Below are positions 1,348 to 4,160 of a stretch of DNA of 64,000 nucleotides, in pieces (the stretch's first letter is position 1; each line of letters starts with the position of its first letter). The DNA is from Hydrogenophaga sp. (GTDB lineage Bacteria > Pseudomonadota > Gammaproteobacteria > Burkholderiales > Burkholderiaceae_C), in assembly GCA_011391595.1 (NCBI GenBank), contig JAABQG010000003.1, positions 1-64,000 of the forward strand, read 5' to 3'. The notes beneath the pieces are model-generated. The model ran no database searches, was not told the DNA's origin, and saw only the letters and a list, made by a program, of their open reading frames with translations. Both the position numbers and the translations under genes were made by a program.

Positions 1348-2808
1348 ATGATCTCCCGCGAACCCACCATCGAACGCCTGGCCACGGCCCAATCCCTGCT
1401 GCTGGCGCCTTTCGGCCTGACTGAAGCGCACCTGTCCCGTGCCTTGGCCGAGATCACCGCGCACAAGGTCGACGACGCCGACCTGTATTTCCAGTACACC
1501 CGCTCTGAGGGCTGGAGCCTCGAAGAAGGCATCGTCAAGACCGGCAGCTTCAGCATCGACCAGGGCGTGGGCGTGCGTGCGGTGGCCGGTGAAAAAACCG
1601 CATTTGCCTACTCGGACGACATTTCCGAAGCCTCGCTGATGGACGCGGCCCGCACGGTGCGCTCGATTTCCACGGCGGCACAGAACCGCCGCGTGAAGAC
1701 GCCCGCCCGCAAGGTGGCCACCAGTCGCTCGCTGTATGGCGGGCTGGACCCGATCGCCACGATGGACAGCACGGCCAAGGTCGAACTGCTGGGCCGTGTC
1801 GAGAAGATGGCGCGTGCCCGCGACCCGCGCATTGCCCAGGTGATGGCGGGGCTGGCCAGCGAGTATGACGTGGTGATGGTGGCGCGCGCCGATGGCACGT
1901 TGGCCGCCGACGTGCGCCCGTTGGTGCGCCTGTCGGTCACAGTCATCGCCGAGCAGAAGGGCCGCCGCGAGATGGGCTCGGGCGGTGGTGGCGGCCGCTT
2001 CGGCTTGGCTTACTTCACGGACGCGCAGATTGCCGAATACGTGGACGACGCGGTAAAGGCCGCGCTGACCAACCTGGACGCCCGTCCGGCCCCGGCCGGC
2101 GAGATGACCGTGGTACTCGGCCCAGGCTGGCCCGGCATCCTGCTGCACGAGGCCATCGGTCACGGCCTTGAAGGTGACTTCAACCGCAAGGGCTCCAGCG
2201 CCTTCAGCGGGCGCATCGGCCAGCGCGTGGCAGCCAAAGGGGTGACAGTGCTCGACGACGGCACGATCAGCGACCGGCGCGGCTCGCTCAACGTGGACGA
2301 CGAAGGCCATGCCAGCCAGCGCAACGTGCTGATCGAGGACGGCATCCTGAAGGGCTACATCCAGGATTCGATGAACGCCCGGCTCATGGGGGTCAAGCCC
2401 ACTGGCAACGGCCGGCGCGAAAGCTACGCCCATGTGCCGATGCCGCGCATGACCAACACTTACATGCTCGGCGGCGAAAAGGATCCGAAGGAAATCGTCG
2501 CCAGCATCAAGAAGGGCCTGTACGCCACCAACTTCGGCGGCGGGCAGGTGGACATTACCTCGGGCAAGTTCGTGTTCAGTGCCAGCGAAGCCTTCTGGGT
2601 GGAAAACGGAAAGATCCAGTTCCCGGTGAAGGGCGCAACGATCGTCGGCAGCGGCCCGGAGTCGCTCAAGAAGGTCACGATGATCGGCAACGACATGAAA
2701 CTCGACAGTGGCGTCGGCACCTGCGGCAAGGAAGGCCAGAGCGTGCCGGTGGGCGTGGGCCAGCCGACCTTGCGCATCGAAGGGCTGACCGTCGGCGGCA
2801 CCGCTTGA
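1348..2808 (+). CDS. tldD: TldD metalloprotease
   Basis: A 486-residue M103-family zinc peptidase, normally one half of the TldD/TldE(PmbA) heterodimer that trims peptides (for example microcin B17 leader, CcdA antitoxin). The zinc motif HExxxH is visible as HEAIGH within LLHEAIGHGLEGDFNRKG, followed by the conserved GDFNRKGSSAFSGRIGQ block. The C-terminal region SGKFVFSASEAFWVENGKI is also typical. Length matches the family (about 480). The partner tldE/pmbA is not in this window. The gene is monocistronic in appearance; the next feature is the leader region of DAHP synthase. Confidence 0.95.
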   Translation: MISREPTIERLATAQSLLLAPFGLTEAHLSRALAEITAHKVDDADLYFQYTRSEGWSLEEGIVKTGSFSIDQGVGVRAVAGEKTAFAYSDDISEASLMDAARTVRSISTAAQNRRVKTPARKVATSRSLYGGLDPIATMDSTAKVELLGRVEKMARARDPRIAQVMAGLASEYDVVMVARADGTLAADVRPLVRLSVTVIAEQKGRREMGSGGGGGRFGLAYFTDAQIAEYVDDAVKAALTNLDARPAPAGEMTVVLGPGWPGILLHEAIGHGLEGDFNRKGSSAFSGRIGQRVAAKGVTVLDDGTISDRRGSLNVDDEGHASQRNVLIEDGILKGYIQDSMNARLMGVKPTGNGRRESYAHVPMPRMTNTYMLGGEKDPKEIVASIKKGLYATNFGGGQVDITSGKFVFSASEAFWVENGKIQFPVKGATIVGSGPESLKKVTMIGNDMKLDSGVGTCGKEGQSVPVGVGQPTLRIEGLTVGGTA

Positions 2809-2867
2809 CCGCGTGCCCCGGAGCGCGTAAGGCGCCTGTCAACGGTCCTGTGCTACATTCGATCCCC

Positions 2868-2939
2868 ATGCAGTCGCGTTCCGCTTCCTATTTTTATTTT
2901 TGGTTCTCAGTCCCCGGCGGACGAGAGGCGAGCGCGTAA
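2868..2939 (+). CDS. Aromatic-amino-acid leader peptide of the DAHP synthase attenuator
   Basis: A 23-codon ORF (ATG 2868, TAA 2937) whose product has six consecutive aromatic codons at residues 8-13, Tyr-Phe-Tyr-Phe-Trp-Phe, covering all three aromatic amino acids. It ends 24 nt before a strong intrinsic terminator and 97 nt before the DAHP synthase start. This is the arrangement of ribosome-mediated attenuators (as in trp and pheA leaders). Within the ORF, CCCGGCGG (2913-2920) duplicates the 3' arm of the terminator and could pair with the 5' arm as an antiterminator when a ribosome stalls at the aromatic run. There is no obvious Shine-Dalgarno sequence; a possible -10 (TACATT, 2854-2859) would put the transcript start almost at the ATG, so the leader may be translated from a leaderless RNA. 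Confidence 0.82.
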   Translation: MQSRSASYFYFWFSVPGGREASA

Positions 2940-2958
2940 GCACCCCAACCCCTCACTG

Positions 2959-2993
2959 AAAACCGCCGGAGCCCCACAGCCCGGCGGTTTTTT
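2959..2993 (+). terminator. Attenuator terminator upstream of DAHP synthase
   Basis: AACCGCCGG (2961-2969) pairs perfectly with CCGGCGGTT (2981-2989) around an 11-nt loop and is followed by TTTT, so it is a textbook intrinsic terminator lying before, not after, a gene. The alternative partner for its 5' arm is CCGGCGG at 2914-2920 inside the leader ORF. Together they give mutually exclusive terminator and antiterminator structures. Confidence 0.85.
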
Positions 2994-3035
2994 CATGCCC
3001 CATCCAGATTCGATCCATTTTGCAAGGAGCCTCCG

Positions 3036-4160
<1,125 letters not shown>

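Follow-up and report, generated by a model that had tools for sequence, protein, structure and literature searches.

Ahead of the DAHP synthase gene in a 64,000-nucleotide stretch of Hydrogenophaga sp. DNA (referred to here as the window) is a compact element that is very likely to be a ribosome-mediated transcription attenuator. Judged by sequence comparison, this leader element is real and widespread, being conserved across the family and in part across the order. The enzyme encoded downstream, DAHP synthase, determines the flow into the aromatic amino acids as a whole. Its features in the window, all on the forward strand, are the following.

2851–2859 (+): extended −10 promoter element TGCTACATT, read in the sequence; predicted transcription start at about 2866–2868
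2868–2939 (+): leader ORF of 23 codons, MQSRSASYFYFWFSVPGGREASA, with its ATG at 2868 and TAA stop at 2937–2939, read in the sequence
2889–2906 (+): control codons 8–13, TAT TTT TAT TTT TGG TTC (Tyr-Phe-Tyr-Phe-Trp-Phe), read in the sequence
2904–2913 (+): segment 1, UUCUC-A-GUCC, the 5′ strand of the 1:2 hairpin; overlaps the last control codon (from the fold)
2914–2927 (+): segment 2, CCGGCGG (2914–2920), a copy of the terminator 3′ arm, followed by AC-GAGAG (from reading-frame counts)
2963–2969 (+): segment 3, CCGCCGG, the terminator 5′ arm, with segment 2 (antiterminator) or segment 4 (terminator) as partner (from folds and compensatory changes)
2981–2993 (+): segment 4, CCGGCGG (2981–2987), and U-run (2988–2993), the 3′ side of the intrinsic terminator (from the fold)
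3024–3029 (+): Shine-Dalgarno sequence AAGGAG of aroG, read in the sequence
3036–4160 (+): DAHP synthase gene (aroG-like), 374 aa, ATG at 3036 (NCBIfam TIGR00034)

The 23-codon reading frame and its run of six aromatic codons had been picked out in a first-pass annotation and are confirmed here, as is the terminator between leader and gene (2963–2993), whose 5′ arm begins 24 nt past the leader stop codon and which folds, as 2955–2993, with an energy of −22.8 kcal/mol. The 8-nt stretch CCCGGCGG within the ORF (2913–2920), read in that annotation as able to form an antiterminator, is identical to the 3′ arm of the terminator (2980–2987), and the compensatory changes described below bear out this pairing. 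The downstream product is a DAHP synthase, as had been annotated, because its score of 541.6 bits against NCBIfam TIGR00034 (aroFGH) exceeds the cut-off of 173.2; it falls under the cut-off of the narrower AroG model NF006723 (549.4 against 568).

A chance origin of the aromatic run is excluded within the window: ATG-started ORFs of 8–60 aa with at least five aromatics per seven residues occur in three of 1158 sampled 330-nt stretches, and all three of these contain this leader. General-purpose measures are less telling. The 181-nt region folds only mildly better than its shuffles (z of −1.59, with 12 of 200 shuffles as good), and a simple scanner called neither a promoter here nor the terminator at 2963–2993. 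The latter was probably missed because the loop limit of the scanner is 8 nt and 11 nt separate the arms, and the plain promoter scan is empty because no −35 element is present.

Conservation was assessed in a first set of 111 loci, comprising 80 named loci from a protein scan of genome contigs, the window place, a paralogue (L002) from a search of the same genome and 29 loci from 150 genomes of the same family; 109 of these had enough upstream DNA, L017 and L058 being dropped for having too little. An aromatic-run leader, meaning an ORF within 330 nt in which some seven-residue stretch holds five or more aromatics, is found in 105 of the 109 loci, the window included, with start, stop and run conserved. 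The genera concerned include Acidovorax, Polaromonas, Limnohabitans, Variovorax, Hydrogenophaga, Ramlibacter, Comamonas, Roseateles, Rhodoferax and a Solimonas, the last being a gammaproteobacterium. A terminator lies 3′ of the leader in 104 of the 105, and 103 of 104 carry the in-ORF copy if one-letter variants are counted. The comparison of upstream regions that the first-pass annotation had put forward as a check thus finds the aromatic leader, the terminator and the antiterminator copy conserved, with compensatory changes in the antiterminator. By the five-in-seven definition no leader is present at L002, L070, L072 and L074 (4 of 109). An earlier scan found FYFWHFH at L070 and a weaker aromatic/His run at L072; together with L178, these two loci form a lineage variant with FYFWHFH-type runs that mix His with aromatic codons. 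The leader finder takes the ATG nearest to the run; the start so assigned probably lies too far downstream in L020 and L086 and is probably incorrect in L110.

Of 80 further same-family loci, taken from 107 further places listed, 79 have within 400 nt an ORF with four or more aromatics in seven residues, and 77 reach five or more. A covariance model of the element matches all 80 (E of 4.1e-9 or better); 16 of them had gone into building it, another has the same sequence as a training locus, and 8 duplicate named loci. Locus counts overlap, because nine unnamed loci (8 of these 80 and 1 of the 29 above) duplicate named ones. In other families of the order, 16 of 40 hand-picked loci, one per genome, match the model (E of 2.1e-8 or better; 14 of the 16 stood outside model building), and the remaining 24 give no match better than E 0.04. 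A class-wide scan of 275 genomes returned at least seven matches with E under 1e-5, every one of them closely followed by a DAHP synthase gene: one in the window's own genome, two in the same family and four in other orders, the last with leaders such as NAARASFYFWYYFPKPLAEEGLRSP. Owing to the stricter filters used, these class-wide counts are lower bounds. Another 23 weaker class matches (E 0.002 to 0.07) have no DAHP synthase in their loci of up to about 3.2 kb, and were taken as chance or other attenuators.

Within its own genome the element is a single strong match to the model (E 6.3e-19; the next is 0.30). A second DAHP synthase encoded there (L002, G000:C83:10310-11401) is 57% identical and is without an aromatic-run leader. 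Scans of the pheA, trpE and L002 loci of this genome revealed no such leader, trpE lying near a contig end; one aromatic ORF listed at pheA falls by its position within that gene, in its C-terminal part, and two ORFs with Trp listed at L002 are on the opposite strand.

The element folds into the four segments of a classical attenuator, with a 1:2 hairpin (2904–2927), a 2:3 antiterminator (2914–2920 with 2963–2969) and a 3:4 terminator (2963–2969 with 2981–2987). Earlier annotation of the region as a complete attenuator was essentially correct, though it did not include the 1:2 hairpin, which the folds reveal: UUCUC-GUCC (2904–2913) pairs with GGAC-GAGAG (2919–2927), burying the in-ORF copy. 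The 2:3 antiterminator has an extra short GAG/CUC pairing inside. For the 1:2 hairpin, native sequence upstream of the copy gives a better fold than the mean of its own shuffles in 172 of 198 elements.

These helices were counted in an RNA alignment of 42 sequences, reduced by hand from the 198 elements (L037, L110, L136 and L150 excluded) and used in place of whole alignments of the lists of 139 and 76. RNAalifold alone returned the terminator only, because it is unable to hold alternative structures, and the named structures were therefore counted instead. For the 2:3 antiterminator, 93.9% of cells are paired and double changes occur in four of the seven pairs, a result equalled by none of 500 shuffles; slid controls reach at most 59.9% paired, with one pair showing double changes. 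The outer 1:2 helix (UUCUC/GAGAG) is paired in 93.8% of cells, with double changes in three of five pairs. Taken jointly with the terminator it is paired in 95.9% of cells, against at most 60.2% when slid. Support for these two helices lies in this pairing rate, because their double changes (5 pairs, 5 cells) are hardly above those of slid controls (4 pairs, 7 cells at +3).

Position tests on 186 distinct sequences (L158, L186 and L203 excluded) point the same way. An A in segment 3 co-occurs with a T in segment 2 (7 of 10 against 11 of 176; Fisher 2.4e-6, relatedness ignored), and CCGTC co-occurs with GACGG (4 of 6 against 1 of 180; Fisher 1.5e-6, shared ancestry ignored); of the remaining two of the four tests, one is weak (p 0.032) and one nil (p 0.80). 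Four leaders (L157, L169, L202 and L221) combine CCGTC in segment 3 with GACGG in segment 2, so that Watson-Crick pairs are kept in the antiterminator. The same variant leaves a G-U in the terminator, where six sequences have U-G at that pair. In L202 the folded inner 1:2 stem is also changed to match (CGUC/GACG). The covariation rests on few positions, because most of the terminator core never varies. Of 179 leaders, 149 carry the in-ORF copy in frame 0, 28 in frame 2 and 2 in frame 1, and retention of the copy in differing reading frames indicates that the constraint is on the RNA and not on the peptide. On these comparisons the 2:3 antiterminator is supported by compensatory changes, and support for the 1:2 hairpin is weaker.

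The leader is preceded by a conserved promoter box and by little else. An extended −10 box TGNTANANT (consensus TGTGCTACATT) ends 6–9 nt ahead of the leader ATG in 167 of 184 leaders; in the window, the same arrangement is found at 1 of 1979 ATGs, that one being this leader. Because the spacing can be 6, 7, 8 or 9 nt, no frame is maintained across it, and the box is therefore not coding sequence. In the 45 nt of the 167 aligned promoters no −35 element is conserved, and the −10 box is all that is. An SD-like motif is present in none of 183 leaders and ahead of 67 of the 71 aroG starts tested. Such a box close to the ATG, together with the lack of an SD-like motif, points to a leaderless or near-leaderless mRNA, and in close relatives the leader mRNA is probably leaderless. 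The suggestion of a leaderless message in the first-pass annotation thus holds for close relatives but is limited to them, because of 18 ORFs scanned at order level, 16 of them model matches, just 1 shows the box-before-ATG pattern.

The composition of the run is also constrained. Counted from the last aromatic residue in 183 leaders, Tyr is at −3 in 125, Phe at −2 in 151, Trp at −1 in 135 and Phe at 0 in 166. Over the whole ORF, 168 of 184 leaders contain all three aromatic amino acids, 13 being without Trp and 3 without Tyr. Run codons are TTY rather than TTR by 754 to 3, an excess that is partly built in because leaders were chosen for aromatic content. Of Phe codons, TTT makes up 517 of 827 in the leaders against 184 of 932 in the aroG genes of the 111 loci. 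Sensing of all three aromatic amino acids is plausible.

The effect of ribosome position was modelled by folding with a masked ribosome in 177 leaders (7 of the 184 left out). Without a ribosome, the 1:2 hairpin is preferred in 123 of 177 and the antiterminator in 53. When the A site is put in turn on the last four positions of the run, the counts for 2:3 are 174, 174 and 173 of 177 and 172 of 173. One codon past the run, 2:3 forms in 94 of 168, and two codons past in 13 of 77, with segment 2 covered in 100. Placing the ribosome earlier, 4–8 codons ahead of the last aromatic, still gives 2:3 in 156–169 of 177. The folds thus support an off state after passage of the ribosome, not a sharp early limit, and as modelled the equilibrium structures do not require a stall exactly within the aromatic run. 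In 41 of 177 leaders a ribosome at the stop codon leaves segment 2 uncovered, and there the off state would depend on the 1:2 hairpin.

Beyond the observed anatomy, its conservation and the compensatory changes in the antiterminator, we infer the start site, translation, stalling, termination and direction of the response as follows. RNA polymerase would start on the leader AUG or no more than about 2 nt from it, and from such a start a ribosome is proposed to load directly on the 5′ end without an SD sequence. Scarcity of tRNA charged with Phe, Tyr or Trp would stall the ribosome on codons 8–13, where it would cover segment 1 and leave segment 2 free to pair with segment 3; the terminator would be blocked and aroG transcribed. 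When charged tRNA is ample, the ribosome would reach the stop codon, covering or passing segment 2, and the 1:2 hairpin could reform behind it; segment 3 would then pair with segment 4 and transcription would end at about 2993. An improbable extension is a three-input switch, an ancient and main control of DAHP synthase in betaproteobacteria, in which lack of a single one of the three (Phe, Tyr or Trp) would suffice to open the shikimate pathway at its first step; in this extension the terminated leaderless transcript (about 126 nt) or the 23-aa peptide would also act in trans, as has been reported for peTrpL of Sinorhizobium meliloti (PMC7298713).

The main alternative leaves the attenuator as proposed and changes what it senses: mainly one amino acid, Phe or perhaps Tyr, with the other aromatic codons incidental. 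We regard this as possible, if rather unlikely. Phe is the commonest run residue, 13 of 184 leaders manage without Trp and 3 without Tyr, and the AroR leader of C. glutamicum, which contains Phe-Tyr-Phe, is described as insensitive to Tyr availability (PMC11802643). However, 168 of the 184 leaders hold all three, the residues nearest segment 1 are Tyr, Phe, Trp and Phe in most, and DAHP synthase supplies all three pathways. Arrest of the ribosome by the leader peptide itself, through TnaC-like nascent-chain sensing rather than slow codon decoding, is very unlikely: a FYFWFSVPGGREASA-like core is conserved in many near relatives, but F, Y and W interchange, the run lies at varying distances from the start, and the residues after the run shift with the reading frame (VPGGREASA, SHRPADGEASA, STHPAVERSVRT) while the RNA segment stays constant.

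Two readings dispense with a regulatory leader peptide. The terminator might serve the transcript of the upstream gene tldD (1348–2808), which ends 154 nt ahead of the terminator arm, the ORF then being a chance or unrelated small gene; conservation of the run, the promoter box and the 2:3 pairing, and the position of the element before DAHP synthase genes in other families and orders, make this extremely improbable. A T-box or metabolite riboswitch has nothing in its favour beyond the terminator and the target gene, and its probability is close to negligible. No Rfam family reaches its cut-off in 2600–3200, where a cmscan to E 5 gave four weak matches, all under the gathering cut-off and none a leader or T-box (the best being ftsZ-DE, E 0.22), and in the 45 nt up to the −10 box only the box is conserved. 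Attenuation by a translating ribosome is the reading carried forward here.

The first-pass annotation named trp and phe leaders as precedents. Like E. coli pheL-pheA and trpL-trpE, the element has four segments forming 1:2, 2:3 and 3:4, with control codons overlapping segment 1. The E. coli systems read one amino acid each from SD-led leaders and serve terminal-branch enzymes, whereas the aroG leader has a mixed aromatic run, no SD sequence and a gene for the shared first step. Multivalent ilv and thr leaders read several amino acids of one pathway family, as may be the case here, but these are branched-chain or Thr/Ile and not aromatic. A close precedent that had been missed is the aroR-aroF attenuator of Corynebacterium glutamicum, reportedly described by Neshat et al. 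in 2014. C. glutamicum belongs to another phylum; its leaders are reportedly leaderless, as is probable here.

According to a review that also mentions the E. coli pheL-pheA and trpL-trpE attenuators, AroR precedes aroF for DAHP synthase, and expression rises on limitation of Phe, not Tyr (PMC11802643). Both there and here an aromatic-codon leader peptide stands before a DAHP synthase gene, and stalling on AroR raises transcription; compared by description rather than by sequence, AroR differs in its Phe-Tyr-Phe run, in the response to Phe and not Tyr, and in that the passage on it makes no mention of Trp (PMC11802643). The uORFC-13-1 motif ahead of Acholeplasma aroF is a candidate leader that likewise combines a candidate uORF, a Phe-coding U run, a terminator and DAHP synthase; as described, it differs in having an RBS and a −35 element and at least one Phe codon in place of a mixed run, and it has 24 representatives in distant organisms (PMC8632094). 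The same paper mentions an attenuation hypothesis for E. coli aroF (PMC8632094). An actinobacterial leader study reports no RNA structure conserved for the phenylalanine or tyrosine operons of that group. TrpR and TyrR control is assigned to gammaproteobacterial lineages in part of a comparative study of proteobacterial regulons, and betaproteobacterial control of the DAHP synthase step looks, from that text, like a gap that the element could fill (PMC5343134).

Among the matches listed from open-licence full-text literature, judged by title or the start of the abstract, no description of the element was found; as far as that literature goes it is so far undescribed, although its general kind is already known. 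The element predicts which codons act, could be used as it stands to sense several amino acids, and is in keeping with a leader that has no SD sequence.

An ilv leader was sought in one stretch of the window's own genome and not found there. The weak class-scan match L262 (E 0.0068; G507:C136:88461-88587, reverse strand; locus 1501–1627) is a leader with a branched-chain run, SILVLVLITQPTGAGRASV. Its layout is the same as that of the aroG element, with control codons followed by an in-ORF copy, GGTGCGGG, of the terminator 3′ arm, and the gene downstream, recognised by eye, is presumably ilvC-like.
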